From Lamprocystis purpurea DSM 4197 (GTDB lineage: Bacteria; Pseudomonadota; Gammaproteobacteria; Chromatiales; Chromatiaceae): DNA of 49,652 nucleotides. Below are positions 13,580 through 49,635 of the stretch, in pieces. Numbering within the stretch: the first letter of the stretch is position 1; each line of letters opens with the position of its first letter. The position numbers and the translations under genes were made by a program. The stretch is taken from contig NZ_KB902509.1 in the NCBI RefSeq assembly GCF_000379525.1, positions 70,814-120,465 of the forward strand, written 5' to 3'. The notes beneath the pieces are model-generated. The model saw only the letters and a program-made list of their open reading frames with translations. It was not told the origin of the DNA and searched no databases.

Positions 13580-13818
13580 GGCGGGCTACCCGTGCGCTGT
13601 TGGCGATGACCGAGATGATAATGATTCTCGATAATAACAAAAATGGATTGTTCTTACCAGAGTGATAGGTGGAGCCGATAGAGGGGTGCGGGTTACCGCC
13701 TGACCCGGTGGATTTCGCCAAGGGGTTCGTGAAAGCGTCGGCCTCCGGTCTCGTCGCCCCGGTCGCCGTAAGGTCGAACCGGTGTGGTACGAAGTGCTTC
13801 GGAAATCGCCTTAGCGCA

Positions 13819-14295
13819 TCACTTGCGCGTCTTTAGTCCTCGCCGGCGGCCCTGGTAGGCGGCGATCTGTTTGATGATGTCCTGAAAGGGCAGGGCGTCC
13901 AGCCCACCGAAACGGGCCAGCGCGGTGCGGACGGTGTCGCGGATATCGGCGATGCGCACGGGGACGGGTTGGTCCGGCGTCAGCGCCGCCTGGAGTCCGC
14001 GCAGGCCGCCGACCTGGATGCGCATGGCCTTGGCGTGAGGCAAGGCATCGGCGCCGGGCGTCGCGTCCGCGGCGATGGTCTTGAGGGTGAAGCGCGCCTG
14101 GCGCCGCAGGGTGGTCAGGAGTTCGCTGCAATCGGCCAGGGCCGCGTCCGCCCCGCAGCGGACGCCCTCGCGCTCGGCGATGCAGAACTTTTGTGCCAGC
14201 GAACAGGCGCCATTGTTGGTGAGGATGGTTTTTTCGAACACACAGGCCCTGGTGTTGACCGCTCGGTAGGTGTCGCGGAAGGCGTCATTGTCCAT
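13819..14295 (-). CDS. Conserved Cys-containing protein downstream of hslR
   Basis: This 158-residue soluble protein has five cysteines in its N-terminal part (about residues 18, 31, 38, 48 and 56, in contexts ACVFEKT, GACSLAQKFC, VRCGAD, LADC). The first segment is acidic and the rest helical with a basic C-terminus (YQGRRRGLKTRK). The cysteine spacing suggests a metal or iron-sulfur site, but I do not recognise the family. The gene starts 17 bases after hslR, so it is probably the third gene of grxC-hslR-this. ATG 14295 was chosen because the longer frame overlaps hslR entirely. Confidence 0.6.
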   Translation of the reverse strand: MDNDAFRDTYRAVNTRACVFEKTILTNNGACSLAQKFCIAEREGVRCGADAALADCSELLTTLRRQARFTLKTIAADATPGADALPHAKAMRIQVGGLRGLQAALTPDQPVPVRIADIRDTVRTALARFGGLDALPFQDIIKQIAAYQGRRRGLKTRK

Positions 14296-22166: not shown

Positions 22167-24908
22167 TCAACCGTCGAAATCGTAGGTGAACCCCGAGTCC
22201 GCTACCCCGATCGCAATCCGCAAAATCGCCTTTCCCTCCATGGTCCGATTCAGGATCTCCCGGCTGATTGCCGGCAGCACCGTATTGGTGAGAATGGCAT
22301 CCACCACCCGCGCCCCGCTTTCCACCTCGGCGCAGCGCTTGGCAATCAGATCCACCGCCGCCTCATTATAGCTCAGCACGGCGCGATGATTGTCGGCGAT
22401 CCGTCGCACGATGCGGTCGAGCTGGAGCCGGATGATAGTCCCCAGCATCTCATCACTCAGCGGGTAATAGGGAATGGTGACGATGCGGCCCAGGAGCGCC
22501 GGGGGGAAGGTCTTGAGCAGCGGGGTGCGCAGGGCTTGGGCCAGCCCTTCGACATCGGGCATCAGGTCCGGGTCCTTGCACATGCTCATGATCAAATCCG
22601 TGCCGGCGTTGCTGGTGAGCAGGATGACGGTGTTGTGGAAGTCGATATAACGGCCCTCGGCGTCTTCCATCCAGCCCTTGTCGAAGACCTGGAAGAAGAT
22701 CTCATGCACGTCGGGGTGGGCCTTCTCCACCTCGTCCAGCAGGACCACGCTATAGGGTTTGCGGCGGACGGCCTCGGTGAGGATGCCGCCTTCGCCATAG
22801 CCGACATAGCCGGGGGGTGCGCCCTTGAGGGTGGAGACCGAATGCGCCTCCTGGAACTCGCTCATATTGATGGTAATGATGTTCTGCTCGCCGCCATAGA
22901 GTGCCTCGGCGAGTGCGAGTCCGGTCTCGGTCTTGCCGACGCCGGAGGGGCCGGCGAGCATGAAAACGCCGATCGGCTTGTTGGGGTTGTCGAGCCGGGC
23001 GCGGGAGGTCTGGATGCGCGCGGCAATCATGTCCAGTGCGTGGCGTTGGCCGATGACCCGCTTGTTGAGTGTCTCGGCGAGGTTTAGCACGGCTTTCACC
23101 TCGTCCTTGACCATGCGGCCCACCGGGATGCCGGTCCAGTCGGCGACCACCGAGGCGACCGCCTGGGCGTCGACGCTGGGCAGGATCAGGGGGCGCTCGC
23201 CTTGCAGCGCGGCAAGTTCAGCCTGGAGTGCGGCCATCTTCTCCAGTGCGGCGGCGCGCTCGGCCTCGGTGAGCGGCGGCCCGGCCTCCGGGGCGGCGCC
23301 GGTCGCCGAACCGGCGGCTTGTTCAAGGGCGCTGCCGGTGCCTTCGACCGGGGCCGTGGTGCCCCGCAATTGGGCACGCAGTTCCAGGATTTGGTTGACC
23401 AGGGCCTGCTCCGACTCCCAGCGTGCCTTGAGCCCGGCCAGACGCTCTTGTTCGACGGCGAGCTTCTCGTTTGCTGCCTGGGCACGCTCGGCGGTGGCGA
23501 CACCGACGGCCGCCTCGCGGCCGATGATGTCCAGTTCCGTGGTCAGTCCTTCGATCCGGCGTCGGCAGTCTTCCACTTCGGGGGGCTCGGACGACTGGCT
23601 GATGGCGACCCTGGCGCAGGCGGTATCGAGCAGGCTGACCGCCTTGTCCGGGAGTTGGCGCGCCGGGATGTAGCGGTGTGAGAGTCGCACCGCCGACTCC
23701 AGACCTTCGTCCAGAAGCTGGACCTGGTGGTGTTTCTCAAGCGTCGAGGCGATGCCCCGGACCATGAGGATCGCTTTCTCCTCACTCGGCTCGTCGACCT
23801 GGACGACCTGGAAGCGGCGGGTGAGGGCCGGGTCCTTCTCGATATATTTCTTGTACTCGGCCCAGGTCGTGGCGGCGACGGTGCGCAGCGTTCCGCGGGC
23901 GAGCGCGGGTTTAAGCAGATTGGCGGCGTCGCCGGTGCCGGCGCTGCCGCCGGCGCCGATCAGGGTATGGGCCTCGTCAATGAAGAGGATGATCGGCTTG
24001 GGCGACGCCTGAACCTCCTCGATCACCTGGCGCAGCCGGTTCTCGAACTCGCCCTTCATGCCGGCGCCGGCCTGGAGCAGGCCGACGTCCAATGTCCGCA
24101 GCGACACCTCTTTGAGCGGTGGTGGCACGTCCCCGGCGGCGATGCGCAGGGCAAAGCCTTCGACCACCGCGGTCTTGCCGACGCCGGCCTCGCCGGTGAG
24201 GATGGGGTTGTTTTGGCGGCGGCGCATCAGGATGTCGATGAGCTGGCGGATCTCCTCGTCTCGTCCCACGATGGGGTCCAACTCTCCTTTGCGGGCGCGC
24301 TCGGTGAGATCCACCGAGAACTGCTTGAGTGCCTGCTGTTTGCCCATCTGGGCCGGGGCCATGGCGTCGCTCGCCTCACCCGGAGCGGCACCGCCGCCCA
24401 GGTGAAAGCCGTCGCTTGCGGCCATGCGCTCCTCCGGAGAGCCCGCGCAGATCTCGGCAAAGCTGTCGGTGAGTGCGTCCGCTTGCACCTTTTCGAATTG
24501 ACGGGAGATGCCGACCAAACTGCTGCGCAGCCCTTTGGTCTTGAGGATGCCCACCATCAGGTGTCCGGTACGCACCTGTGACTCGTTGAAGAGCAGGGTG
24601 GCGTAGGTCCAGGCGCGCTCGGCGGCTTCTTCCACGTCGGAGGACAGATCCGAGATGGAGCGGGAGCCCCGCGGCAGACGGTCGAGCGACTCGGTGAAGT
24701 CACGCGCCAGGCCTGCCGGGTCGAGTTGGAAGCGGCGGATGATCCGGTGCAGGTCCGAGTCCTGGCCTTGCAGAATCTGATTGAACCAGTGCACCAGTTC
24801 CACATAGGGGTTGCCGCGCATCTTGCAGAAGACCGTGGCGCTTTCGATCGCCTTATAGGCGAGCGGGTTGAGCTTTCCGAACAATGCCGCGCGGTTGATC
24901 TCGGACAT
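22167..24908 (-). CDS. clpV: T6SS sheath-recycling AAA+ ATPase ClpV (TssH)
   Basis: This 913-residue Clp/Hsp100 ATPase disassembles contracted TssB/TssC sheath. The N-domain (about 1-160) is followed by NBD1 with Walker A GEAGVGKT near residue 240 and [14 protein letters not shown] middle coiled-coil region follows at about 450-560. NBD2 has Walker [21 protein letters not shown] near 650 and [18 protein letters not shown]. The TETGLALAE text after Walker A and the absence of ClpB-specific ends mark it as ClpV. It is the last of nine collinear T6SS genes, 74 bases after tssG, as in the P. aeruginosa HSI-I locus. The expected vgrG does not follow. Confidence 0.95.
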
Positions 24909-30017: not shown

Positions 30018-31520
30018 CTAACCGCCCTTCGCCGACGGCAGCTTGGAGACCAACCGCAGCGAAACGGTCAGGCCTTCGAGCTGGTAGTGCGGGCGCAGGA
30101 AGAACTTGGACGTGTAGTAACCTGGGTTTCCTTCCACTTCTTCGACCACGACCTCGGCCGCTGCCAGCGGACATTTGGCCTTGGTGTTTTCGCTCGAATG
30201 TGCCGGATCGCCATCCACATATTTGAGGATCCAGCTGTTGAGCCACCGCTGCATGTCCTCGCGTTCCTTGAAGGACCCGACCTTGTCCCGCACGATGCAC
30301 TTGAGATAGTGCGCAAAACGGCAGGTCGCGAACAGATAGGGAAGACGGGCCGCGAGGTTGGCATTGGCGGTGGCGTCCGGGTCGTCGTACTCGAAGGGCT
30401 TCTGCAGGGACTGCGCGCCGATGAAGGCGGCGAAGTCGGTGTTTTTCTTGTGCACGAGCGGCATGAAACCGTTCTTCGCCAGTTCGGCCTCGCGTCGATC
30501 GCTGATGGCGATCTCGGTCGGGCATTTCATATCGACACCGCCGTCATCCGTGGGGAACGTATGGCTGGGCAGCCCTTCCACCGCACCGCCGGACTCGATG
30601 CCGCGGATGCGCGAGCACCAACCGTATAGCTTGAAGGAGCGGTTGATGTTGACCGCCATGGCGTAGGCCGAATTTGCCCAAGTATACTTGCCGTGCTGTG
30701 CCCCCGCGGTGTCTTCCTCAAAGTCGAATTCATCCACCGGATTGGTCTTGGCCCCGTAGGGCAGGCGGGACAAAAAGCGCGGCATGGTCAAACCGATGTA
30801 GCGCGCATCGTCGGATTCGCGCAACGAGCGCCAGGCCGCGTAGTCCGGCGTCTGGAAGATCTTGGTCAGGTCGCGCGGATTGGCCAACTCCTGCCAACTG
30901 TCCATTTGCATGACAGTGGGCGAAGCGGCGGAGATGAAGGGGGCATGGATCGCCGCGGAGACCTTGGCGAGTTCCCCGAGCAGTTCCACATCGGGCGGGC
31001 TTTGGTCGAAATAGTAGTCGCCGACCAGACAGCCGAAGGGCTCGCCGCCGAACTGGCCATATTCCTCTTCATAGAGCTTCTTGAAGAGCGGGCTTTGATC
31101 CCAGGCGGTGCCTTTGAATTTCTTCAGGGTCTTGTGCACCTCCTGCTTGGAGATGTTCATGACCCGAATCTTCAACATCTCGTCCGTTTCGGTGTTATTG
31201 ATGAGATAGTGCAGGCCGCGCCAGCTTCCCTCGAGTCGCTGGAAATCGGCATGGTGCAGAATCAGGTTGACCTGCTCGGTGAGCTTCTGGTCGATCGCCG
31301 CAATCATCGATTCAATGGTGCGAACCGCATCGTCTGAAATGAGCGTGGTCTGAGCCAGCGCCTGGGAGGCGAGGGTGGCGACCGCGCCTTCGACGGCTTC
31401 GCGGGCGCGGTCGGTGCGGGGTTTGAATTCCTGATTGAGCAGCGAGGCGAAGCTGTCGACCTCGATGGTGCCGGTCTGGCCTTGCGCGCCGCCCGCGGTT
31501 TGGGTGTCGGTCTCAGCCAT
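30018..31520 (-). CDS. tssC: T6SS sheath large subunit TssC
   Basis: This 500-residue protein matches TssC/VipB: DSFASLLNQEFKPR near residue 27, the LEGSWRGLHYLINNTETDEMLKIRVMNISKQE block, the conserved GCLVGDYYFDQSPPDVELLGELAKV segment and the C-terminal YYTSKFFLRPHYQLEGLTVSLRLVSKLP. It forms the contractile sheath with TssB. ATG 31520 is four bases after the tssB stop, so the pair is tightly coupled. Confidence 0.97.
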   Translation of the reverse strand: MAETDTQTAGGAQGQTGTIEVDSFASLLNQEFKPRTDRAREAVEGAVATLASQALAQTTLISDDAVRTIESMIAAIDQKLTEQVNLILHHADFQRLEGSWRGLHYLINNTETDEMLKIRVMNISKQEVHKTLKKFKGTAWDQSPLFKKLYEEEYGQFGGEPFGCLVGDYYFDQSPPDVELLGELAKVSAAIHAPFISAASPTVMQMDSWQELANPRDLTKIFQTPDYAAWRSLRESDDARYIGLTMPRFLSRLPYGAKTNPVDEFDFEEDTAGAQHGKYTWANSAYAMAVNINRSFKLYGWCSRIRGIESGGAVEGLPSHTFPTDDGGVDMKCPTEIAISDRREAELAKNGFMPLVHKKNTDFAAFIGAQSLQKPFEYDDPDATANANLAARLPYLFATCRFAHYLKCIVRDKVGSFKEREDMQRWLNSWILKYVDGDPAHSSENTKAKCPLAAAEVVVEEVEGNPGYYTSKFFLRPHYQLEGLTVSLRLVSKLPSAKGG

Positions 31521-31524
31521 CGGG

Positions 31525-32064
31525 TCAACCCTCCGCCGTCGGCGGTGCGGATGCTGCGTCGCCGGCATCGGTCGGTTTGGGTGCGGCCGCCAGGGCCTGC
31601 AGCAAGGTCGGATCTTTCAGCACCTTGGCGATCAGTTCTTCGGCGCCGCTCTTGCCGTCCATATAGGTCAGCAGATTGGATAACTGACCGCGTGCCTGGA
31701 GGAGTTTGTTCAGTGAATCGACCTTGCGCGCCACCGCTGCCGGGGCGAAGTCCTCCATCGATTCGAAGGTCAGCTCCACGTTGAGATTGCCCTCGCCGGT
31801 CAGGGTATTTGGTACCTGGAAGGCGACGCGCGGCTTCATCGACTTGAGTCGCTCATCGAAGTTGTCGACATCGATCTCGAGCATCTTGCGATCCGCAACC
31901 GGCGGCAGGGCCTCCGCGGGTTTGCCTGACAGGTCAGCCAGGACGCCCATCACAAAGGGGAGTTGGACCTTCTTCTCGGCTCCGTAGAGTTCGACATCGT
32001 ACTCGATCTGCACCCGCGGAGCGCGATTGCGGGCGATGAACTTTTGACTGCTCTCTTTCGCCAC
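31525..32064 (-). CDS. tssB: T6SS sheath small subunit TssB
   Basis: This 179-residue protein matches TssB/VipA: SSQKFIARNRAPRVQIEYDVELYGAEKKVQLPFVMGVLADLSG, then MLEIDVDNFDERLKSMKPR, and the C-terminal helices with LLTYMDGKSGAEELIAKVL. It pairs with TssC in the sheath. The alanine/proline-rich tail (APKPTDAGDAASAPPTAEG) is not conserved. Confidence 0.96.
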   Translation of the reverse strand: MAKESSQKFIARNRAPRVQIEYDVELYGAEKKVQLPFVMGVLADLSGKPAEALPPVADRKMLEIDVDNFDERLKSMKPRVAFQVPNTLTGEGNLNVELTFESMEDFAPAAVARKVDSLNKLLQARGQLSNLLTYMDGKSGAEELIAKVLKDPTLLQALAAAPKPTDAGDAASAPPTAEG

Positions 32065-38879: not shown

Positions 38880-39077
38880 TCAGGCGGCCCGCAACGGGGC
38901 AATGTCCTCGGCTGTCAGTGCGGGCGCGTCGACACTCGCGAGGACTGCATTGATGTCCGCGATCGTTATCTTTCCCGGTGCCGTGATTTCGATACCGATC
39001 GGTTTTCCCGCTTCGGTCTGGTGCCCGATCACCACGGACAGGATGTTGGTGTCGAGCAGGAACCTCAGTCGGTCCAA
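38880..39077 (-). pseudogene. Chimeric VapC (PIN) start fused to a DUF2283-like tail
   Basis: The first 16 residues (MDRLRFLLDTNILSVVIG) are the start of a PIN-domain toxin, including the first catalytic aspartate. The remainder (TEAGKPIGIEITAPGKITIA, then ALTAEDIAPLRAA) is not PIN; it resembles the end of DUF2283/YuzE-like proteins. The PIN domain should be about 130 residues, so the toxin is cut and joined to another gene's end. The frame starts at a TTG and overlaps the end of the upstream Phd gene by 13 bases, keeping the normal antitoxin-toxin order. A nuclease activity is very unlikely. Confidence 0.6.
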
Positions 39078-39346
39078 TCGAAGACCCTCCCCGGGGAGGG
39101 GTCGCGCCGCCCGTCGACCTCCTCAGGCGTCAAATCCGGCCAGTAGAAAGCGGCCTGGGTGCGCCAGTCGACAATGGCCTCCCACAGACCCGGCCGCGTC
39201 TGGTTGGGATGCATGGCGGCATAGTCAGACTCCGACATGAACACGGCCACCGATTTACCGTGGCGCGTGAGATGCACGACCTCTCCGCCCTCGACCCGAT
39301 GGATCAGGCCGGTCAGTCGGGTCTTGGCCACTGAGATCTCAGTCAT
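39065..39346 (-). CDS. Phd/YefM-type antitoxin
   Basis: This 93-residue protein has the Phd/YefM N-terminal DNA-binding fold (MTEISVAKTRLTGLIHRVEGGEVVHLTRHGKSVAVFMSESDYAAM). It is followed by a tail (LWEAIVDWRTQAAFYWPDLTPEEVD) that resembles VapB-linked tails seen with PIN toxins. The antitoxin binds its own promoter and would neutralise the toxin whose remnant overlaps its stop. GGAGGGTG lies about nine bases before the ATG. The antitoxin looks intact while its toxin is broken. Confidence 0.82.
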   Translation of the reverse strand: MTEISVAKTRLTGLIHRVEGGEVVHLTRHGKSVAVFMSESDYAAMHPNQTRPGLWEAIVDWRTQAAFYWPDLTPEEVDGRRDPSPGRVFDWTD

Positions 39347-39495
39347 TTGGAATCACCCTCCGCGGGCTAGGGCTGTGGTGCGATGACCACCGGCATGGTC
39401 ATCTTAGCCGGGCCGGCTCGGATCGAGAAGCCGGGTTGGCAGACCACTTGACAGGTGCTACTGTCCGCACCAACCAAGCCCAGCGACAGGCGTCC

Positions 39496-39765
39496 ATGCG
39501 CGTGAAATTCTCCGAAGACGTGGTCCCGTTAGCGGACCTCAAGGTCAATCCTGGTCGCGTGGTCCAGCACGCGGCCGAGGCCCATCGGCCCGTGCTGCTC
39601 ACCAGCCGAGGGCGCGGAGTCACCGTCATGCAGTCCGTGGCCGACTACGAGCAGGCCGCCGAGGAGCGCGCCTTCATGCGTGCCGTGGTTGCGGGATTGG
39701 CCGACTTGGACACGGGCCGCGAGGTCTCTCTCGCCGAGGCCAAGGCCAGATTCGGCGTGGCTTAG
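39496..39765 (+). CDS. Phd/YefM-type antitoxin
   Basis: This 89-residue protein starts MRVKFSEDVVPLADLKVNPG, followed by RPVLLTSRGRGVTVMQSVADYE, the Phd/YefM DNA-binding core. It ends in an acidic toxin-binding tail (LDTGREVSLAEAKARFG). ATG 39496 is preceded by ACAGG and is where the family starts. The ParE-like toxin begins four bases after its stop. Confidence 0.88.
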   Translation: MRVKFSEDVVPLADLKVNPGRVVQHAAEAHRPVLLTSRGRGVTVMQSVADYEQAAEERAFMRAVVAGLADLDTGREVSLAEAKARFGVA

Positions 39766-39769
39766 GGGC

Positions 39770-40306
39770 GTGGCTGTCGCCAGGATTCGCTTCGCCGAGT
39801 CCGCACTCGGCGACTTGACGGGCATCCAGGAGTGGTACGCCGACGAAGGGGTGCCGGAGGTTGGCGACCGGCTTGTCGCTGAAATCTTTGAACGCGTGGA
39901 GGTGCTCGCCGACCACCCGAGCATCGGGCGTATCGTTCCGGAGTTCGGCCAAACCTTCCTGCGCGAGTTGATCCACCCTCCTTTCCGGATCGTCTATCGC
40001 CTCGACGCGCAGCGCGTTCGTAGCGTTCGTGTGTGGCGGAGCGAACGGTTGTTGCGGCTGCCGGCATCGGCCAAGGCACAGCATGTACCCGTCTCGGCCG
40101 ACCCCGATTTGGCTTATCTCGCATCCGGCAACGATGCGGCAGTTTGGGGCGGGAGATCCGGGGGCGTTTTGTTTATCTGGCCGCAGCCTAAAGATACCGA
40201 ATTGAGTAAACTGTCCCCAGAATTCAGGCGTGACCCCGTGCTCCCGTGTAGACCCCGTTCAACTGCCGCATCCCTTTCGACAGGTTCGCATCCGGCGTTT
40301 CGATGA
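39770..40306 (+). CDS. ParE/RelE-type toxin with an abnormal C-terminal extension
   Basis: From GTG 39770 about 95 residues fit a ParE-family toxin: VARIRFAESALGDLTGIQEW, then VADHPSIGR-type and ELIHPPFRIVYRLDAQRVRSVRVWRSERLLRLP. ParE proteins poison gyrase. Normal proteins end right after RLLRLP, but here the frame runs on for about 80 residues (to 40306) through DNA that includes the GTAAACTGT motif flanking the RAYT remnant. The natural stop seems to have been replaced by mobile debris. Whether the extended toxin is active is unknown. Confidence 0.75.
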   Translation: MAVARIRFAESALGDLTGIQEWYADEGVPEVGDRLVAEIFERVEVLADHPSIGRIVPEFGQTFLRELIHPPFRIVYRLDAQRVRSVRVWRSERLLRLPASAKAQHVPVSADPDLAYLASGNDAAVWGGRSGGVLFIWPQPKDTELSKLSPEFRRDPVLPCRPRSTAASLSTGSHPAFR

Positions 40307-40496
40307 TGAAGTGGTAGTAATTGGTCATCTGGCAGCATCCGTGGCAACGCCAGTGGAAGTAGTCACAGACATCGCCGAACAGCCTCAGCCAAGCCTCGCG
40401 ATCAACATCCCGACGGTAGATCGGCTCGCGCCGATCACCGCGCGACGTAACGTGATACAGCCCGCCCGTCAACTCGATGCGTAGAGGTCTCGACAT
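40224..40496 (-). pseudogene. Truncated REP-associated tyrosine transposase (RAYT)
   Basis: This 90-codon remnant has the RAYT/Y1 start MSRPLRIELTGGLYHVTSRGDRRE, then WHGC-like text (HWRCHGCCQMTNYYHFIIETPD) and LSKGMRQLNGVYT. The HUH histidine pair, normally NHYH, is NYYH here, so one metal ligand is gone. The protein stops where the C-terminal half, about 100 or more residues, should follow. RAYTs are the enzymes that mobilise REP palindromes, which are frequent in this window. Motifs GTAAACTGTCC/ACC flank the remnant at 40207 and 40624. Confidence 0.85.
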
Positions 40497-40883: not shown

Positions 40884-41279
40884 TCAGCATCCACTCTCTC
40901 GCTGCGCATTACGAAACGAGTCACCGGCAAAGCGGGTCACGGCGGACTCGTAGGTGTTGGCTATCTCACGACACAGCTTCCTATGTGCCGCGTGCCAACG
41001 GCTTGTATAGGCGCGGTTGCAGGCTCCTCGCATCTCGGAGCCGAACACTCGGTCGCAATCCGCCTTGGCGGCACCACAGGTCTCGTAACAGCGGTCGTGG
41101 CTACGACACGCTGGCGTAAAATCCGCGTTGCCCCAGGTATCGCGCACCCATTGCTCGTTGCGACCGTTTCCGCACGCACCGGACGGCGTGATGCCGTCGA
41201 TGTCCGATTGGCCGCTCTCCATGGACCGGACCGTGGCGATGCAAGCCGCGTCCTTCAGCATCAGCGCTGGTAGTCGCAT
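40884..41279 (-). CDS. Phospholipase A2-like protein with leader (small protein 1)
   Basis: This 131-residue protein has two parts. Residues 1-33 form a leader-like segment, MRLPALMLKD at the start and DGITPS at 28-33. From residue 34 a Cys-rich domain begins with GACGNG and contains CRSHDRCYETC (H61, D62), the calcium-phospholipase A2 active-site motif, then KADCDRVFG and further cysteines; ten cysteines lie after the motif. PLA2 enzymes cleave the sn-2 ester of phospholipids. The usual calcium loop YGxxCGxGG is only partly seen (ACGNG), so activity is uncertain. GGAGGTGA before ATG 41279 is a near-perfect ribosome site. The gene lies downstream of the PatA/PatG-like protease with two other leader-bearing genes. 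Confidence 0.78.
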   Translation of the reverse strand: MRLPALMLKDAACIATVRSMESGQSDIDGITPSGACGNGRNEQWVRDTWGNADFTPACRSHDRCYETCGAAKADCDRVFGSEMRGACNRAYTSRWHAAHRKLCREIANTYESAVTRFAGDSFRNAQRESGC

Positions 41280-41363
41280 CAGATCACCTCCCTCTCGCTC
41301 TTGGTTGAATCTCGTGCGGCCGAAGGATGGCTCCGATCCCGCCCCCGGCAACATCACGCAGGC

Positions 41364-41388
41364 GCAGGACTCGTGCCCTGAGTCCTGC
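41364..41388. other. Intergenic hairpin between small proteins 1 and 2
   Basis: GCAGGACTC (41364-41372) and GAGTCCTGC (41380-41388) are perfect complements with a seven-base loop. There is no T-run on either side, so it is not a standard terminator. It could stabilise a processed transcript. Confidence 0.45.
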
Positions 41389-41448
41389 AATTTCTCCAGC
41401 GTTCTCGGGGAGTGACGCTGCGACGACACCGGCAGCGCTACAAACCCG

Positions 41449-41706
41449 CTAGCAACTGCCGAGGCAGGAAGCTTGTGCCCCGCCGCAGGCGGCGATGCAA
41501 CCGGCAAGCCCAGCCCCCGCCGTCGCAGCCGTGCAAGCCGAAACACAGGCGGCGGTCGCCCAATTGCACTTTGCCCGACACCCCTCGTTTGACCAGTTCT
41601 TCGGCTGCCACCACGCCTTCGAAGGCATGACCCCATCGCCACGGCGAAGGCCCATCGCGAATAGGCCGACGCCCGCCGCCATCCCGCCCTGTTCTGGAAG
41701 TCGCAT
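41449..41706 (-). CDS. Cys/Ala-rich small protein with leader (small protein 2)
   Basis: This 85-residue protein starts MRLPEQGGMAAGVGLFAMGL and carries DGVMPS at residues 24-29. After that come WWQPKNWSNEGC and a run of cysteines: C43, C47, C54, C58, C70, C74, C81 and C85, mostly in CxxxC pairs with Ala/Gly between (for example CIAACGGAQASCLGSC at the end). The CxxxC spacing suits a helical hairpin held by disulfides. I know no family for it. ATG 41706 has GAGGTGATC directly upstream. It may be a secreted, disulfide-rich peptide released by the neighbouring protease. Confidence 0.7.
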   Translation of the reverse strand: MRLPEQGGMAAGVGLFAMGLRRGDGVMPSKAWWQPKNWSNEGCRAKCNWATAACVSACTAATAGAGLAGCIAACGGAQASCLGSC

Positions 41707-41910
41707 CTTGATCACCTCGCTGTCTATGGTTGGATACCGAACTACCTCTTCACCCGGAAGCGGCGCCGTGCAAGCAGGCTCGCGAACACGCTTCGCAATT
41801 CTCATTGATCGACGCTCGCGAATACCTGGAGGCAAGCCCCGCACAGATCCGCGCGGAGCCGGCCTTATCGCTTACCGCCCGCGGGCTCCGCGTCCACTCG
41901 CCGGCGATTC

Positions 41911-42132
41911 TCATCCCCAGCGGCAGCGCTCCTCCTTGCAGCGCTCAACGCACTGGAGGTCGTCACCACAGAACCTGTAGCAATCCCCGCAGTGGACCGC
42001 AGCGACGCTCTCAATCGGATATTCCGGCTGGGATGGCGGATATTCCGGCAGCTGGGATGGTGTCAGCCCGTCCGCGCGGATCGCCGCATCGCAACGCCGA
42101 TCCGGGATCAAGTTGAGACTGGGTATGCGCAT
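41911..42132 (-). CDS. Cys-rich small protein with leader (small protein 3)
   Basis: This 73-residue protein starts MRIPSLNLIPDRRCDAAIRA and carries DGLTPS at residues 21-26. It continues with a proline-rich linker (QLPEYPPSQPEYP) and a charged Cys cluster: C48, C51, C55, C61, C65 and C70 (HCGDCYRFCGDDLQCVERCK). Six cysteines could form three disulfides or bind metal. The family is unknown. GAGGTGA lies six to seven bases before ATG 42132. The gene starts 25 bases after the protease gene and is surely co-transcribed with it. Confidence 0.7.
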   Translation of the reverse strand: MRIPSLNLIPDRRCDAAIRADGLTPSQLPEYPPSQPEYPIESVAAVHCGDCYRFCGDDLQCVERCKEERCRWG

Positions 42133-42157
42133 ATCGTTCACCTCTGACGATGGAATG

Positions 42158-44224
42158 CTAGAGGAACTTCGGCGTTCCGTAGCTGATCTCGCTGCTGCCG
42201 TCCAGGTACGGCTTCGGCGTGGACACGTCGATACGGAAGGTCTTGCAGTAATTCGCATTCCTGACGTTCTCAGTGTCGAAGTACGCGGCAGTAATCTCGT
42301 ACACGAGAGCACCCGGCTGGCGCGATTCTACTCGAACTGGCGCGTAGAGGCCTTTCAGGGCGATGCGGCGACCGTCGACCAGGTCGTCTAAAGCGAACTG
42401 AACCGCAACGCTCGCCAAGAAGTTGACGGCACGCGCCTCCGGGGTATCGCCCTTCGGATGGACGAACGCGTATAGGGCGGCGGCTGTCCTGCGGTACGCA
42501 GCGACGCGCTCTTCATCAGCCATGTTTAGCAGAGCTTTCTCTTCCAAGTCCTTGAGCACCGAGTCCAAATTCCAAGAGTCCGTAAGATCATACTCCGGGG
42601 TGAGGATCGGAACGGTTTGGCCGGTCTCGGCGAGCACCGCCATCTGCCCCGTCACGTATCCAGGAACGGCGAAGTGGTCTGGACGGTCCTTCTTGTTCAA
42701 CGGCGTATCGGCCTTGCCCAGCCGCAACTTGCGGTGTGCGTCGGCAAGTCCCTGCTGCTCCATGTAGTCGAAGACCAGGCTGGTCAGGTCCGTCGCGGCG
42801 GACAGCCCGGTGGGCTGGATCACATACTGCGGCACCCCCGCATATTCCAAGACCCAGTGAACGCGGGAGGCCTCTTGGAGGTTCAGCTCACCCGGCCCGG
42901 TGCCATCGGGGTTAACCCGGAAAAGATGCCGCATGAAGCATAAGTCATCCTGGATGACGGGCCGTTCTTCGCCCTTCATGCGACGACGAATGTCCTCCCT
43001 GCGCGCAATGGATGGGAAGTCGTAGGCGAGTGTCCCGACCGCGAACACGGGTTTGGCCGCCGCTGCGCCACCGCAAGAACAGCCCCCCGATGGCTGCACC
43101 CCGGACTGCCCGGCCCCTATCGTTATGAACGCGGGCGGCGCGCCGACCGCGGGCACCGGCGTCACGAGTTGGTCCGGCATTGCGGACACGCCAGCGGTCG
43201 GGGTGAGGAGATGGACTTCCGGTGGAGAAGACGCCGTCTCCGATGCGGTGGCGGTGGTGTCTGTGGTCATTGGGGGCAGTTCCTCCCGTAGCAGGGTCTC
43301 AACGGTACGTGAAATCGATAGCCTTCCGGCCAGGAGCTTGCGACAGTCGTTCGCGGCTTGGATGTCGCAACCTGTTGCAGAGCCGATGATCGCGCTACGC
43401 ACCGCGGCGGCGGACGGCTTGATTCCGCGCCGCAATTGCAGGCTCAGCAGAAGGGCGGCAATCCCGGCGACAATGGGCGCCGCATAGCTCGTGCCCGAGG
43501 CGATCGCGGTCCCCCGCGTGGGGCTGGCACCCAAGATGTTCTCGCCGACGGCCAAGACCCCCTGCGTCAGGTAGGCATCGCCCCAGTTGCTGAAGTCCAG
43601 GGGCTCGCCGTTCGGCCGCATTGCGCCGACGGCTAAGACCGAGGGGATCGCGCCGGGTACGTGAAGGCAGTTGCAGCCTTGGTTGCCCGCTGCGGCGACG
43701 ATCAGAACCTTGTCCTGATCGCAGTCGGCGATGGTGCGCGCGAGGACGGGGTGTGCCTCGCCGGATTGCGAGAATTGCCCGCCGCTGATGTTGATGACCA
43801 ACGCTTCGGCGTCGTGCTGGACGGCATAGTGCGTCGCGCGCTCGATCGCGGCAGCGAGGTGGACCTGCGAGCAGGGGATTACGCCCCCGGTCGCGTCGGA
43901 TTTGAAGACGGGAATCACGAGTCCCGAGCACCCGGGGGCGATCCCATGGACCGGGCCACCGTCCTGCCCGAAAACGATGCTCGCAATGTGCGTCGCGTGC
44001 TCGGCGGCGGCATCCGACGGCGAGAGGCCATCCTCCAAGACCTCAAGTCGCTTTCCGAGGAAGGCCGGATGGCTGGTGTCGACCGGACCGTCGATGATCG
44101 CCACGAATACCCTGCTATCTCCGCGTGTTTCCCCCCAAAGCTCACGCAATCCTACCAGCGCCGCCACGTCCATCGCGTGGTCAGGCGTGGCGGTCAACAC
44201 TGAAGCTGTCGAGAAGCGTTGCAT
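42158..44224 (-). CDS. PatA/PatG-like subtilisin (S8) maturation protease
   Basis: The protein has 688 residues. The S8 domain covers about 20-310 with catalytic D45 (VAIIDGPVDT), H76 (EHATHIASIVFG), oxyanion N181 (AAAGN) and S246 (SGTSYAAP). HATHIAS and the text INISGGQ, CLHVPGAIPSVLAVGAM and LDFSNWGD are those of the cyanobactin maturation protease family. A Pro/Thr linker (about 315-375) and a GCSCGG motif (381-386) follow, then a PatG-type C-terminal domain (392-688) beginning VFAVGTLAYDFPSIARRED. There is no signal peptide or membrane helix, so it is cytoplasmic. In cyanobactin pathways such proteases cut the precursor leader. ATG 44224 has no clear ribosome site; a start at residue 18 is possible. 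Three leader-bearing small genes follow. Confidence 0.88.
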   Translation of the reverse strand: MQRFSTASVLTATPDHAMDVAALVGLRELWGETRGDSRVFVAIIDGPVDTSHPAFLGKRLEVLEDGLSPSDAAAEHATHIASIVFGQDGGPVHGIAPGCSGLVIPVFKSDATGGVIPCSQVHLAAAIERATHYAVQHDAEALVINISGGQFSQSGEAHPVLARTIADCDQDKVLIVAAAGNQGCNCLHVPGAIPSVLAVGAMRPNGEPLDFSNWGDAYLTQGVLAVGENILGASPTRGTAIASGTSYAAPIVAGIAALLLSLQLRRGIKPSAAAVRSAIIGSATGCDIQAANDCRKLLAGRLSISRTVETLLREELPPMTTDTTATASETASSPPEVHLLTPTAGVSAMPDQLVTPVPAVGAPPAFITIGAGQSGVQPSGGCSCGGAAAAKPVFAVGTLAYDFPSIARREDIRRRMKGEERPVIQDDLCFMRHLFRVNPDGTGPGELNLQEASRVHWVLEYAGVPQYVIQPTGLSAATDLTSLVFDYMEQQGLADAHRKLRLGKADTPLNKKDRPDHFAVPGYVTGQMAVLAETGQTVPILTPEYDLTDSWNLDSVLKDLEEKALLNMADEERVAAYRRTAAALYAFVHPKGDTPEARAVNFLASVAVQFALDDLVDGRRIALKGLYAPVRVESRQPGALVYEITAAYFDTENVRNANYCKTFRIDVSTPKPYLDGSSEISYGTPKFL

Positions 44225-44359
44225 ATTTCGGTTACGTGCTGGATTAAGGATAGGGTCTCGATGGCAGCGCTTTTGCAGGTCGGTAGGGCCCGAGAGACGG
44301 CCACATCAAAACTTTTGCTTAACATAGCACTCGGTTTGGTAGTTGCACCCGACAGCCGA

Positions 44360-44391
44360 GCTAACATTTAGCGAAGAAAGTCCGAAGGAGG
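44360..44391 (+). repeat. Shared regulator leader DNA, copy 1
   Basis: GCTAACATTTAGCGAAGAAA followed by a CCGAAGGAG block precedes the truncated regulator at 44394. The same stretch, with changes, precedes the second fragment (44858-44888) and the intact regulator gene (complement of about 47516-47551). This shows that the three copies were duplicated together with their 5' ends. Confidence 0.65.
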
Positions 44392-44393
44392 CG

Positions 44394-44633
44394 ATGATGA
44401 TCCGAGCGATGCACGCAGATTACCCGTTGGACGACGCTGGCATCGACGGTCGGGAGATGCACAGCCCGGAGGCGGTGCAGTTCGACGTCTGGGAAGCCGT
44501 CCCGACGCTGAACTTGCAGCAATGCTGTGGAAAAGAGATGCGCGTGGAGCCAAAGGCCATGGAGTCGCTGGTGTATCTCGCTCGGCACGCGGGCACCGTC
44601 GTGTCCCGGAGGAAAAGGGGCAGGCTCAATTGA
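44394..44633 (+). pseudogene. Truncated winged-helix (CadC/OmpR-type) regulator, fragment 1
   Basis: From ATG 44394 (AAGGAGG at 44385-44391) the product starts MMIRAMHADYPLDDAG and reaches RVEPKAMESLVYLARHAGTVVSR. This is the first half of an OmpR/PhoB-type winged helix, closely like the intact copy at 45749-47515 (RLEPKVMEVLIFLIGRVGEVVPR). After VVSR the frame becomes unrelated and stops. The recognition helix, membrane segment and TPR part are absent. It points away from the protease gene and may be the remains of that operon's original regulator. Confidence 0.72.
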
Positions 44634-44971: not shown

Positions 44972-45235
44972 GATTCGCGGCTGCGCCGGGCAGAGCAGAA
45001 GATTCGTCTTGAGCACAGGGTGATGGAGATCCTGGTCTTCCTCTATCGGCACGCTGGCGCGGTGGTGTTCCGCGATGAGCTGTTGGCGAAGGTCTCGCCC
45101 AGGGTCGCAGCCGGGGACGCTGCTGTGACCCAGGCTGTTTTCAAGCTGCGCAAGTCATTAGGCAACGATCAGCGGGCGCGGCGCGACATCCAGACGGCGC
45201 CCAAGCGTGGTTACCGCTTCGTTGGCCCGTCAATT
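44972..45235 (+). pseudogene. Winged-helix regulator fragment 2
   Basis: In one frame from 44972 the product reads DSRLRRAEQKIRLEHRVMEI, then FLYRHAGAVVFRDELLAKV and TQAVFKLRKSLGNDQRARRD up to KRGYRFVG: a full OmpR-type winged helix. An in-frame TGA lies just before it at 44966-44968, and there is no start codon with a ribosome site at the proper place. After KRGYRFVG the similarity ends. The domain that follows in the intact copy (membrane helix, TPR) is lost. Confidence 0.75.
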
Positions 45236-45239
45236 TGCC

Positions 45240-45747
45240 CTAAACGCGCACGGCTGCGCCAACCGATCGTCCTCGAGATTGGAACCGCAAACGCGTCTGG
45301 CTATGGCCCACGGCAGTGGCGGCAGCAATCGGCACCAGGGCATCGAAGGTGGCCTGCTGCGCCGGATCGAGAAAGGTATACCCGTTGGGATGGCCCTGCC
45401 GCTTGGCGTCGAGAATGCGCTCGCACTCATCGGTGCGGTCGTGGACCAGCAAATAGAACCGGGATGTACCCAGGGAGCCGGTGCCGACGCCCAGGCGGCG
45501 GGCGCAGTCGAGCATGCCTTTGCGGTTGGACTCAGCAGCCACTGAGTCCAGAAAGCGCCGCGGTAGAACGTGAATCGCGAGGCCGCCATGCGCAGGTACT
45601 CTGCCCAGCCCTCCGCGGGCAGGAGTTTCGCGTGCATGCATTGAGGGCCTCGATGGCTGCCGCGGCGCGTTCGCCTTCGGCGGGCACCTCCAGAGGGTCG
45701 TGCGCGGTTCCTGGTCTCCTGATCGTTGACCAGGCTGTATGGTTCAT
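45240..45747 (-). pseudogene. Frameshifted gene of unknown family
   Basis: Three consecutive minus-strand frames each hold protein-like text: DPLEVPAEGERAAAAIEALN (frame ending 45532), then AKLLPAEGWAEYLRMAASRF plus TFYRGAFWTQW, then AAESNRKGMLDCARRLGVGT, SRFYLLVHDRTDECERIL and GYTFLDPAQQATFDALVP. They join head to tail at about 45640 and 45540. This is how a single gene with two frameshifts looks. I do not recognise the family. Confidence 0.55.
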
Positions 45748-45748
45748 A

Positions 45749-47515
45749 TTATAGATTCAGCGAGCCCAACGCGGTTGTTAGGCGCTCGATCTGCTCGGCA
45801 TCGGTCATCGGATAGGTGTCGAGCCAGGTACGGATGCTGAAATCCGGTGCCAAGGTCCGGATCTCCTCGGTCTCCCACTCGGCGCCGTCGCGATCGCCGC
45901 TGTCCAGCAGCGTCGCGGCGAGATAGACGTGGGCTTCGAGATTGGCGGGATTGCGGGCGATGGCCTCATTGAGATTGATCCGCGCCTGCTCGTCATCGCT
46001 CAGAAAGAAATAGGCACGCCCAAGCAGCAGGAAGTAGAGATAACCGGCCGTGGGCTCCAGCCGCATCGCATTGCGCAGCAACGGGATCGATGCACTCGGC
46101 TCGCCGACGTAGGTCTTGATGCCGCCCTTCAGCGCATAGGCATCCGCAAAGCCTGGCGCTACGGCCAAGGCGCCATCCAGGTGAGACAACGCCTCGTCGT
46201 GGTGTCGACGTTGCGTGCTCACATAGCCGAGTACCCAGTGCGCCTCCGGCATTTGCGGGTCGATCTGCACCGCGGCCTTGGCCATGTCCTGCGCACGGCT
46301 GAGGGCCGCGGCACCATCCGCGGCCCACTGGTTACGATAGTCTGCCGCGTGGATCAGCGCGAGTCCGCCATAGGCCCGTGCGAAGGCGGCATCGAGCCTG
46401 ATCGCTTCCCGATACAGGTCCTTCGCCGTGTCGTTCGCATCCTCGGTGGGGACCAACAGCGCGGCCTTGGCCCGGAGAAATGCGTCGTACGCAGCCACCG
46501 AGCGACTGTAGCGACCAGCATCGCGCTCCAGCTTGGCCCGGCCGAGCTGGCTCGATAGGGCCGTCGCGACTTGAGCCTCGATCTCGTCGCGAATGGCGAA
46601 GAGGTCGCCAAAGGGTCGATAGTAGCGCTTGGACCACAGTTCCCGCCCGGTCGCTCCTTCCACCAACTGCACCTCGGCGGCGATCTGATCCTGCGTGCGT
46701 TGGACGGCACCGAAAACGCGAAACTCCGCGGCCGCGACCTCGTCCGCCGTGGCCGACCGCTGTGCGGCATCGACGCGAATCACGTCCAATTCCGAAATCC
46801 GTGACAGATCCATCGCCAACTCCGACGCAAGTCCACGCGCAAGGTAGCGCTGTTCCGGATGCTCGCCGAGCACGTCGAACGGCATGACCGCAACCGCCGG
46901 GCGGTGAGCTTGTGGTGGTTGCGTGGCGGCTGCGTTTGCAGGGGAGATCGCAACCGCGGTGACGGCCTCGACAACAGGCGGCGACGGCCCGGCACGGCGA
47001 TGCAGCGCGACCGCCACCACCAGCATGCAGCCGATCGCCGCGGTTGCAGTCGCCGGCCAGAGCCAGGCCCGCGTCCTTCCGGAATTCCTCTTCCCTGCTG
47101 GGAGTCGGGCCACTGGCAGGGTATCGCCGACAGCGTCCGGCGTGCCGATTCGCGCCACCAAGCGGTAGCCACGCTTCGCCACCGTCTCGATGTAGAGCGG
47201 TGCGCGCGCATCATCGCCGAGCGCCTTGCGCAGCTTGATCACCGCCTGTGTCAGCGCATCGTCCCCGACCACCACACCCTGCCACACCGTCGTCAGCAGA
47301 ACATCCCGGGGCACCACCTCGCCGACCCGCCCGATCAGGAAGATCAGCACTTCCATCACCTTGGGTTCCAGGCGAACCTGCTGCTCGCCCCGCCGCAGCA
47401 GGTTCAGCTGCGCCTCGACATACCAGTCCCCCAGCCGGATCAGACACATACCGGCCGTATCCGCGCTCCTGCCGAGAGCTTCCAGACCGCGATCATCGTT
47501 GTTCGTTCGGTTCAT
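45749..47515 (-). CDS. CadC-like winged-helix, membrane-anchored TPR regulator
   Basis: The protein has 588 residues. The OmpR-type winged helix (about 25-120) contains VRLEPKVMEVLIFL, DALTQAVIKLRKALGDDARA and AKRGYRLV. A single membrane helix (150-172, ending GCMLVVAVALHRR) follows. The next part starts with AVMPFDVLGEHPEQRYLARGLASEL and contains FAIRDEIEAQV, as in TolB-like/adenylate-cyclase-associated domains. TPR-like repeats (about 330-585) end the protein. Such one-component regulators sense something in the periplasm and act on DNA directly. ATG 47515 was chosen because the shared leader DNA of the two broken copies aligns just upstream. It is the only intact copy of three. Confidence 0.88.
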   Translation of the reverse strand: MNRTNNDDRGLEALGRSADTAGMCLIRLGDWYVEAQLNLLRRGEQQVRLEPKVMEVLIFLIGRVGEVVPRDVLLTTVWQGVVVGDDALTQAVIKLRKALGDDARAPLYIETVAKRGYRLVARIGTPDAVGDTLPVARLPAGKRNSGRTRAWLWPATATAAIGCMLVVAVALHRRAGPSPPVVEAVTAVAISPANAAATQPPQAHRPAVAVMPFDVLGEHPEQRYLARGLASELAMDLSRISELDVIRVDAAQRSATADEVAAAEFRVFGAVQRTQDQIAAEVQLVEGATGRELWSKRYYRPFGDLFAIRDEIEAQVATALSSQLGRAKLERDAGRYSRSVAAYDAFLRAKAALLVPTEDANDTAKDLYREAIRLDAAFARAYGGLALIHAADYRNQWAADGAAALSRAQDMAKAAVQIDPQMPEAHWVLGYVSTQRRHHDEALSHLDGALAVAPGFADAYALKGGIKTYVGEPSASIPLLRNAMRLEPTAGYLYFLLLGRAYFFLSDDEQARINLNEAIARNPANLEAHVYLAATLLDSGDRDGAEWETEEIRTLAPDFSIRTWLDTYPMTDAEQIERLTTALGSLNL

Positions 47516-47740
47516 CGGCGGCTCCAGCGGCGGTTCTTCGTCCAATCTTAGCCCGTTCGGCGGGCGGAGGCGGCTGGTCTTCCCCAACCTGTGGTTTGAG
47601 CAGCGAGACGCTGCGCGGGGCCTGCGCCCCGCGCCATGCGGCGGAGGGCAACAACAGGCGCCCGGGACAAACGGCACCGAGCAGTCCGAGTTTGACGTCG
47701 AACCACCCCGACCTTCGCTCCTCGACGGCGACCCTAAATT

Positions 47741-48195: not shown

Positions 48196-49525
48196 ATGTC
48201 GATCTTACCCGCTCTTGCCGTGCAGTTCCAAGCCCTCTTTCCGGCGACCGCGCATGGCCAGCGGCGCAGTCGCTGGTTCATCCTGACGCTCCAGGCGATC
48301 CTGGTCCCGATCACCGCCTCGCGCACCTCCAACTTGTTGCGGGCGATTGCCACCTTGTTTGGCGTGGTGATCGCCCAGTCGCGGTACTACACCTTTATGG
48401 CGTCGGTGAAATTGCCCTGGAGGCGGGTCTGGGAGATGCTGTGGCGGGCCATCCCCGACCCGCTGACCGCGGGACGCTTGCTGCTGGCGCTGGATGATTC
48501 GCTCAACCCGAAGACGGGGCGCAAGGTGTTTGGCTGCCAGACCACCTTTGACCACGCGGCCAAGGCGAATCAGAGTCGGTATCCCTGGGCGCAGACCATT
48601 GTGACGGTGGTCCTGCTGAAGGTGATTCACGGCCGGTGGAGTGGCGTGCCGTTGGCCTTCGCGTTCTATTTACGCCGGATCACGCTGCGCGCTCACTGCA
48701 TTCGCGTGCGCGGCGACGCCGTGCGGTTTCAGACCAAGCTGGCCCAGGCGGTCGCGCTGATCGCGCGGATCGGGGCGGTCTTCCCCACCGTCCCGGTGCT
48801 GGTGGTGTGCGACAGTTGGTTCGGGGACAAGGGGTTGTTCAAGCCGTTACGGCAGGCGTTGGGACCGCGCGCGCAGTTGCTGTCGCGCCTGCGCACCAAT
48901 GCCGCATTGTATGATCTGCCGACCCCCACGCCCGGGCGCGGCGGGCGTCCGTGCACGTACGGCGAGCGCTTGGGCAACGCGGAGTCGTTGGCCACCACGC
49001 TGCGGCCGAGTGCGCAGGCGTATACGTTGAACCTGTATGGCACGCTGCGCACGGTCATGGCGGTCGACCGTGTGGTGATGCTCAAGACCCTGCGCTGCCG
49101 GGTGCGCGTGGTGTGGGTCTTCCGCACCACCCAATGGGTCGCCTTGGTCACCACGGACTTGGACCTCTCCGTCACGCAGATTATTGAATATTATGGCGCG
49201 CGCTGGAAAATTGAAGCCGGATTCCGAGAAATCAAGCAGGAGATCGGCAGTGCCGAGACGCAAACGCGCAACCCCGATGCCGTGACCAATCATCTGAATT
49301 TCTGCATGGCGGCGACCGCCATCACCTGGATCTACGGCGCGCATCTGGAGCACGCGCCGCCGCGCCGGTATTCGACCACCAAGCGCACCGAATATGCCTT
49401 CGCCGACCTGCGGCGTCGGCTCGCACAGGACCTCGGCGGGGAGGGTTTTGGTATTGATTGCGGGGGGGGCCAACAAACCGACGCAAAATCCCCTGATCGC
49501 CGCGGTGATGCGGCTCGTGGCTTAA
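48196..49525 (+). pseudogene. IS4-family transposase with a one-base frameshift
   Basis: The DDE residues are visible: D100/D101 (LLLALDDS), D206 (VVCDSWFGD) and E340 in YGARWKIEAGFREIKQEIG, the Y-2-R-3-E-6-K signature of IS4 transposases. A run of eight Gs at 49462-49469 shifts the frame. With seven Gs the protein would end PLIAAVMRLVA at TAA 49523-49525, inside the element. As given, the frame runs across the IS end to 49578 and picks up foreign residues. The extra G may be a mutation or a sequencing error. All catalytic residues lie before it, so partial activity is possible. Confidence 0.82.
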
Positions 49526-49545
49526 TTGAAAACAGGAAACTTCAG

Positions 49546-49635
49546 AACATAAAGGCTTTTTGTTGCTCCACAATCTAACGTAAGGTGATTTCCGCGAAAA
49601 ATCCAACCCGTAGGAGCCCGCTTGCGGGCGACGGG
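49546..49635. repeat. 90-bp inverted copy (right end of window)
   Basis: This is the reverse complement of positions 1-90 and includes the REP-like GCCCGCTTGCGGGC at about 49617-49630. It begins at the base after the IS4 right end. Seventeen further bases (49636-49652) are unique to this side. Confidence 0.85.

Follow-up and report, generated by a model that had tools for sequence, protein, structure and literature searches.

The window analysed here is a stretch of 49,652 nucleotides from the gammaproteobacterium Lamprocystis purpurea DSM 4197 (contig NZ_KB902509.1, positions 70,814 to 120,465). Our subject is a cluster of four genes on its minus strand, at positions 40884 to 44224, in which a gene for a PatA-type S8 protease is followed by three small open reading frames (ORFs). 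A first-pass annotation of this DNA had described a complete S8 protease with the triad D45, H76 and S246 and a PatG-type C-terminal domain, followed on the same strand by three small genes that have their N-terminus in common. This anatomy is borne out, and the features of the cluster are as follows.

42158-44224, minus strand: PatA-type S8 protease with a C-terminal PatG-DUF-like domain (P0001), an intact ORF of 688 amino acids
43280-44158, minus strand: S8 protease domain within P0001, about residues 23-315, with the triad D45/H76/S246
42179-43054, minus strand: C-terminal domain of P0001, about residues 391-682, PatG_D / PatG DUF (PF18047; Foldseek match to 4uvq)
43088-43105, minus strand: SGVQPS, residues 374-379 of P0001, followed by GGCSCGG in a low-confidence linker; a predicted, candidate self-cleavage site
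41911-42132, minus strand: small precursor 1 (P0004), 73 amino acids, with a leader to DGLTPS and a 47-residue core with 6 Cys
42055-42132, minus strand: predicted leader of precursor 1, residues 1-26
41449-41706, minus strand: small precursor 2 (P0003), 85 amino acids, with a leader to DGVMPS and a 56-residue Ala/Gly/Cys-rich core with 8 Cys
41620-41706, minus strand: predicted leader of precursor 2, residues 1-29, with a hydrophobic stretch
40884-41279, minus strand: small precursor 3 (P0005), 131 amino acids, with a leader to DGITPS and a 98-residue core resembling phospholipase A2 (PLA2), with 8 Cys and a His-Asp dyad
41181-41279, minus strand: predicted leader of precursor 3, residues 1-33

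The triad of the protease, together with the oxyanion residue N181, is unchanged across all 49 proteases aligned. Searches with TIGR03895 and the PatG Pfam domains, which the first-pass annotation had suggested, place the protein in the cyanobactin protease family: TIGR03895 matches with an E-value of 1.4e-99 and 334.5 bits, though this is below its curated cut-off of 421, PF18047 (PatG_D) scores 34.3 bits, over its cut-off of 27, and PF18065 (PatG_C) scores 20.2 bits, under its cut-off of 25.9. The C-terminal domain matches 4uvq in Foldseek with an E-value of 2.4e-16 and a template modelling score of 0.84 normalised by the target; PMC4259220 records the function of this domain of PatA/PatG as unknown. 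The first-pass annotation had labelled the enzyme PatA/PatG-like, which needs correction. The window protease scores 286 bits to PatA/PagA versus 142 bits to the PatG macrocyclase, the nearest structures to its fold are PagA/PatA, and it is closer to these than to the macrocyclase. Subtilase models from PADLOC also match the S8 domain (PDLC03014, E-value 1.4e-15; IetS, 5.1e-8), as would be expected if this were an anti-phage protease of the IetS type, or another effector protease, to which the small genes are accessory; the matches to PatA/PagA are far stronger, and we regard that explanation as scarcely credible.

The three small ORFs lie downstream of the protease, and an AGGTGA stretch resembling a ribosome-binding site stands ahead of each of their start codons; a box of this type is absent upstream of the protease ORF. 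All three proteins begin with MR[LI]P and carry the motif DG[ILV]xPS at residues 21-26, 24-29 or 28-33, past which their sequences diverge. PMC10885120 places the cut of PatA-like enzymes behind G(L/V)E(A/P)S, and the motif in all three window precursors agrees with this RSII consensus, except that the Glu is not kept. A similar sequence, GGGVTPS, occurs in a small ORF of a classical Gloeothece cluster, which is annotated as hypothetical and is a precursor by its look. The cores of the window proteins hold 8, 8 and 6 Cys and the whole proteins 9, 8 and 7, respectively, since two of the three leaders carry one Cys each. A profile of the three whole proteins returned no further protein from their own genome at an E-value of 10 or below.

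The first-pass annotation had called all three small proteins Cys-rich substrates; the third can be classed further, as PLA2-like. P0005 passes the Pfam gathering cut-off of the secretory PLA2 family PLA2G12 (36 versus 34 bits) and keeps CxxHDxC, with H61 and D62 as the His-Asp dyad; it differs from secretory PLA2s in having a PatA-type leader as its pro-region, and its match to the prokaryotic PLA2 family PF09056, at 20.3 bits, is below the cut-off of 29.4. A search for longer leader ORFs recovered two homologues, each beside a PatA-type protease and each with CxxHDxC: one at locus L084 (11213-11593, Desulfobulbaceae; PLA2G12, 51.4 bits) and one at L071 (8895-9269, Pirellula, Planctomycetota; 46.2 bits), in which the core follows VVAS. 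Aligned from the first residue past xPS, the cores of P0005 and L084 share 60 of 98 residues and need no gap, while their leaders compared alone give no BLAST match. Cargo of this kind is rare: in a sample of 398 genomes of the phylum, a profile of the three PLA2-like proteins matched at 1e-6 in the host genome and in just 2 of the 397 others. In members of three phyla, then, a rare cargo accompanies a PatA-type protease, with sequence conservation setting in at the predicted cut. By its sequence P0005 resembles a PLA2 and may be an enzyme. A sequence search of the PDB with P0005 returned no PLA2 (best E-value 0.18). A short ORF at L084 (11599-11925) was rejected as a PLA2, having a PLA2G12 score of 30.3 against the cut-off of 34 and no catalytic His, and the PLA2 family matches of L095 14843-15337 are all below cut-off.

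A scan for close relatives with the window protease as sole query found none, and so an alignment of seven PatA-like proteins was used to scan genome contigs. This gave 240 relatives, the best 80 of which by score were kept. Locus L100 is identical to L054 and the pair was therefore counted as one; with six loci from other sources and the window, the sample comprises 86 loci. Tailoring markers were called from BLAST matches to proteins whose identity as YcaO/TOMM cyclase, SagB/ThcOx oxidase or PatF prenyltransferase had been confirmed. At least one such marker is present in 19 of the 86 loci and none in the other 67, and 59 of these 67 carry one or more leader-bearing small ORFs beside the protease, the opposite of the finding by which the first-pass annotation would have been overturned, namely homologous proteases regularly standing without small genes. 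Fifty of the 59 were identified by the leader profile; the profile match is missing in nine, the window included. The window itself qualifies as one of these systems, with its PatA-type protease, its leader-bearing ORFs on the same strand and its lack of tailoring markers. By their record names, the 53 positive loci from the genome contigs span 12 phyla (31 of the 53 are cyanobacterial, and many are contigs of metagenome-assembled genomes, or MAGs), while all 18 marker-bearing loci from the genome contigs are cyanobacterial.

The leaders of many relatives begin with [LI]PxQxxPVxR, and the leader profile, which has 16 positions and was built on the relatives, matches 140 ORFs in 63 of the 86 loci at 10 bits or more. 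Because the same loci supplied the profile, strand bias and shuffled ORFs serve as its controls: 136 of the 140 lie on the strand of the protease, and none was found among shuffled ORFs. Two regular expressions were also applied, and since both were written after such proteins had been seen, ORFs elsewhere in the loci are their control. The first (M.?[LIVF]P and [GN][ILVMA]x[PA]S, 14-45 residues apart) picks out 35 among the 4054 ORFs that lie close to a PatA-type protease and share its strand, in 24 loci, versus 1 of 24088 elsewhere across the 86; three of the 35 are from the window and at least one (L136) is a ThiF fragment. The second (a box resembling a ribosome-binding site and an M.[LIM]P start) matches 87 of 2421 ORFs near the protease versus 9 of 25721 elsewhere. 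Some of the relatives' proteases are annotated as 'cyanobactin maturation protease', and the small ORFs adjoining several of them are unannotated or 'hypothetical'.

The leaders are modular, being separable from their cores, and similar leaders stand on unrelated cores. We listed 129 candidate precursors and scanned 86 of them against families: PLA2G12 is matched by two, Kunitz_BPTI by one (2.6e-15, L065), DUF5840 by two, the PatB family TIGR04220 by eight and the PirE-type precursor model TIGR04446 by seven (best E-value 3e-4). The Kunitz protein, at 13622-13900 on the plus strand of L065, a Bacteroidetes MAG, has a leader MNLPIQ...GILPS joined to the Kunitz/BPTI domain. After removal of 18 PatB-like or identical entries and of 34 without the motif by the regular expression, 77 precursors could be parsed for Cys content. 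An even number of Cys was found in 44 of the 47 Cys-bearing cores, and the three odd ones are the ThiF fragment of L136, a misread site in L093 and the Kunitz protein with seven. The proposal of the first-pass annotation that leaders are removed from disulfide-rich proteins is largely supported and fits the window; it holds for the wider family only in part, as 30 of the 77 parsed cores are free of Cys, and one of the cargoes is enzyme-like.

Two gene families recur beside some of the proteases: a leucine carboxyl methyltransferase-like gene in 9 of the 86 loci (L058, L059, L064, L068, L077, L081, L085, L090 and L129) and a patatin-like phospholipase gene in 7, partly the same loci. Several of the loci that bear these genes carry Cys-free cores. 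Three of the TIGR04220 (PatB) matches, picked by eye (L058 11852-12085, L059 12523-12756 and L068 11994-12230), start with MK[TL]PxQSLPVxR, as precursors do, which may have a bearing on the role of PatB.

A motif resembling that of the leaders recurs within the proteases themselves. The structure model of the window protease has a predicted local distance difference test (pLDDT) score below 50 at residues 319-386; SGVQPS falls inside this region, where the linker reads SGVQPSGGCSCGG. The form [ILVM]xP[SA] occurs in the interdomain linker of 69 of 82 proteases, against a shuffle mean of 25.9, and has a Cys no more than 12 residues away in 46 of the 82, against 6.1. Given how common the linker motif is, we predict self-cleavage: the enzyme would probably cut its own linker at SGVQPS, separating the catalytic from the C-terminal domain. 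The title of PDB entry 3zxx describes the PatA protease domain as self-cleaved. The substrate motif is also matched by DGLSPS at residues 65-70 of the window protease (44015-44032, minus strand), just ahead of the catalytic His76, which is a candidate second self-site or a chance occurrence.

A rather different explanation would be that the small proteins are independently secreted, with odd signal peptides, and that the protease has nothing to do with them. A homologue of the PLA2-like protein in another context, L047, carries by eye a Sec-like start where the others have the leader, and so another export route is open to a core of this kind. In Kyte-Doolittle hydropathy (best mean over 11 residues) the P0003 leader, with its hydrophobic stretch, reaches 1.88 and that of P0005 1.48, compared with 3.11 for the start of L047. 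Yet P0004 lacks such a stretch (0.33), the median over the 77 parsed leaders is 0.43, similar leaders stand on unrelated cores beside the protease in the 59 loci, and the linker of the protease itself holds a motif of this type in 69 of 82 cases. We consider independent secretion improbable.

Rather more weight, although still tentative, is given to the leader acting chiefly as a signal for export or targeting, read by an exporter encoded elsewhere, with cutting coupled to export as in double-glycine systems, an explanation that is compatible with leader removal by the PatA-type protease. The modularity of the leaders would suit it, and an ABC ATPase, in 8 of the 86 loci, is the sole exporter-type family recognised among the gene families that recur beside the proteases. 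Against it, no exporter was found linked to the clusters, though the genes around them were not annotated individually. Bacteriocins with leader peptidases (class II and similar) resemble the present clusters in their small leaders, several precursors per cluster and, among the relatives, Cys-rich or amphipathic cores; they differ in the linked protease, here a subtilase of the PatA type that has a GxxPS-type site, rather than a double-glycine C39 peptidase-exporter.

Cyanobactin biosynthesis is the known system that comes closest. It has in common with the window the PatA-type S8 domain, the PatG-DUF domain and a G[ILV]x[PA]S-type site, and with the relatives the LPxQxxPVxR-like leader start and the matches to the PirE-type model. 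A YcaO heterocyclase is found in many, not all, cyanobactin clusters. The first-pass annotation had held that this is not a classical cyanobactin cluster, and the genome of the host, which is in 211 contigs and 100% complete per its record, agrees: YcaO (PF02624) has no match in the whole of it, and its single PatG_D protein is the PatA-type protease itself, leaving no PatG macrocyclase protease. PatB and PatC (TIGR04220, TIGR04447) gave no match among the four window proteins scanned, the rest of the genome not being searched. According to a 2015 review, active clusters always encode the A and G proteases, the precursor E, and B and C, and such clusters were known at that date from cyanobacteria only (PMC4663559). 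The window host, in contrast, is a gammaproteobacterium, of the same class as a Thiotrichaceae record in our sample, and its precursors have cores of 47-98 residues and end in RESGC, CLGSC and CRWG, with no AYDG-type recognition sequence.

The window might still be a decayed classical cluster from which heterocyclase, PatG and core were lost, in keeping with the protease family, the long branch of its protease and its divergent leaders. A tree of 82 proteases (a quick search with SH-aLRT support only, midpoint-rooted just for drawing) brings 18 of the 19 rows that carry a marker together in a single group of 22 rows (support 100). The group consists of 17 marker loci from the genome contigs, the plasmid locus L042 and four marker-less rows, and excludes the window; the one marker-bearing row outside it, L066, has a SagB-type marker alone. 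Decay is at odds with the cyanobacterial origin of all 18 marker loci from the genome contigs and with their place on this supported branch (L066 excepted), with the size of the window cores, the PLA2-like one among them, and their lack of a cyanobactin-type C-terminal signature, and with the intactness of the protease and all three ORFs, so that we think it very improbable. The tree suggests, without proving, that the classical cyanobactin proteases are a derived branch inside a wider family.

From these sequences we think it likely that the cluster is a PatA system without YcaO, in which a PatA-type convertase removes the leaders from three different cores. The convertase would recognise the short leaders that start with MR[LI]P, or with [LI]PxQxxPVxR in many relatives, and would cut after DG[ILV]xPS, freeing the 98-residue PLA2-like protein, the 56-residue core with 8 Cys and the 47-residue core with 6 Cys. 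Maturation would consist of proteolysis, probably with disulfide formation, and would make neither heterocycle nor macrocycle. Most likely the leader would keep the cores inactive or addressed until it is cut; propeptides are present in some animal secretory PLA2s, and would offer a parallel. That the products act antagonistically or lytically is conjecture.

Several observations weigh against this reading. The branch of the window protease is very long (1.9), and its joining to L084, with a weak support of 60, may be long-branch attraction. A search of seven congeners yielded no full-length relative. The window leaders keep MR[LI]P and the cut motif alone; QxxPVxR is missing from them, and they score below 10 bits with the relatives' leader profile; they look closer to the variant with an M[KR][LIM]P start in L041, L061, L069, L073, L074 and L086. 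In hydrophobicity the leaders of P0003 and P0005 rank above all others of the 77 except the ThiF fragment, the only one to exceed P0003, and P0003 may have a weak signal peptide. For neither the P0003 nor the P0004 core did the searched loci yield a significant relative; homology of the former to Cys/Ala-rich cores in L063, L079, L088 and L111 was set aside as not significant (E-value 0.084 for the sequence, 0.42 for the domain). The single-sequence structure model of P0005 is poor, with a pLDDT of 44. In the wider family, eight of the 67 marker-less loci have no leader ORF (L075, L101, L102, L116, L118, L130, L136 and L137), two of which, L075 and L102, run into a contig edge; the 34 listed precursors without the motif and the 30 Cys-free cores also count here, and the 80 genome loci are the top scorers of the 240, with many MAG contigs among them. 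The sequences establish the anatomy, the motif, the recurrence of the arrangement, the conserved boundary of the PLA2-like core and the lack of YcaO and of a second PatG_D protein; cleavage, self-cleavage, disulfides and a cytoplasmic site of action are what we infer.

The PLA2-like identity of the largest small protein, the recurrence of the arrangement and the linker motif in the proteases are new. Our literature searches, which did not take in the majority of subscription papers and preprints, turned up nothing on PatA systems without YcaO. The first-pass annotation had surmised a possible undescribed maturation system; the window cluster belongs to a widespread and apparently undescribed family of systems without the usual cyanobactin chemistry. 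A broader proposal, to which we would give an even chance, is that the original business of PatA-type proteases, themselves self-processing convertases, is the maturation of leader-tagged mini-proteins across the bacteria, with venom-like folds (PLA2, Kunitz) among the cargo. Classical cyanobactin biosynthesis would then be a derived branch within the cyanobacteria, to which heterocyclase, prenyltransferase and macrocyclase were added, and the window a divergent member with a zymogen-like phospholipase A2 as its main cargo. If the reading of these clusters as leader-removing PatA systems is right, the readable cut site would allow the mature products to be predicted in many of the 240 relatives. 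The clusters would also suggest where the cyanobactins may have come from, give a way into the function of the C-terminal domain of PatA/PatG, and let one test directly how bacteria could keep a PLA2-like protein inactive.

Within the class, the protease finds matches at 1e-20 in 5 of 369 genomes, and both of its domains are covered only in its own genome and in G089, the Thiotrichaceae genome of L054/L100. Transposase genes flank the cluster on both sides, which makes its gain by transfer likely. Around it lie two Phd/YefM antitoxin genes, a piece of an IS200-like transposase and a DDE transposase (39065-39346, minus strand; 39436-39765, plus; 40224-40496, minus; 48196-49578, plus). Type VI secretion system (T6SS) genes on the minus strand at 22167-24908 and 30018-31568 encode a ClpB/ClpV-like ATPase and a VipB-type sheath, the sheath gene being about 9 kb from the cluster. 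A link to the T6SS genes, at about 22-33 kb, was set aside because the arrangement of protease and leaders recurs in many phyla (T6SS genes in the other loci were not searched for). One further gene is associated with the cluster by position only.

45749-47518, minus strand: regulator with a winged-helix (Trans_reg_C) domain and tetratricopeptide repeats (TPR), upstream of the protease on the same strand

Two stretches on the plus strand, 44343-44633 and 45020-45754, look like partial copies of this regulator; only the second has a match in Pfam (Trans_reg_C).

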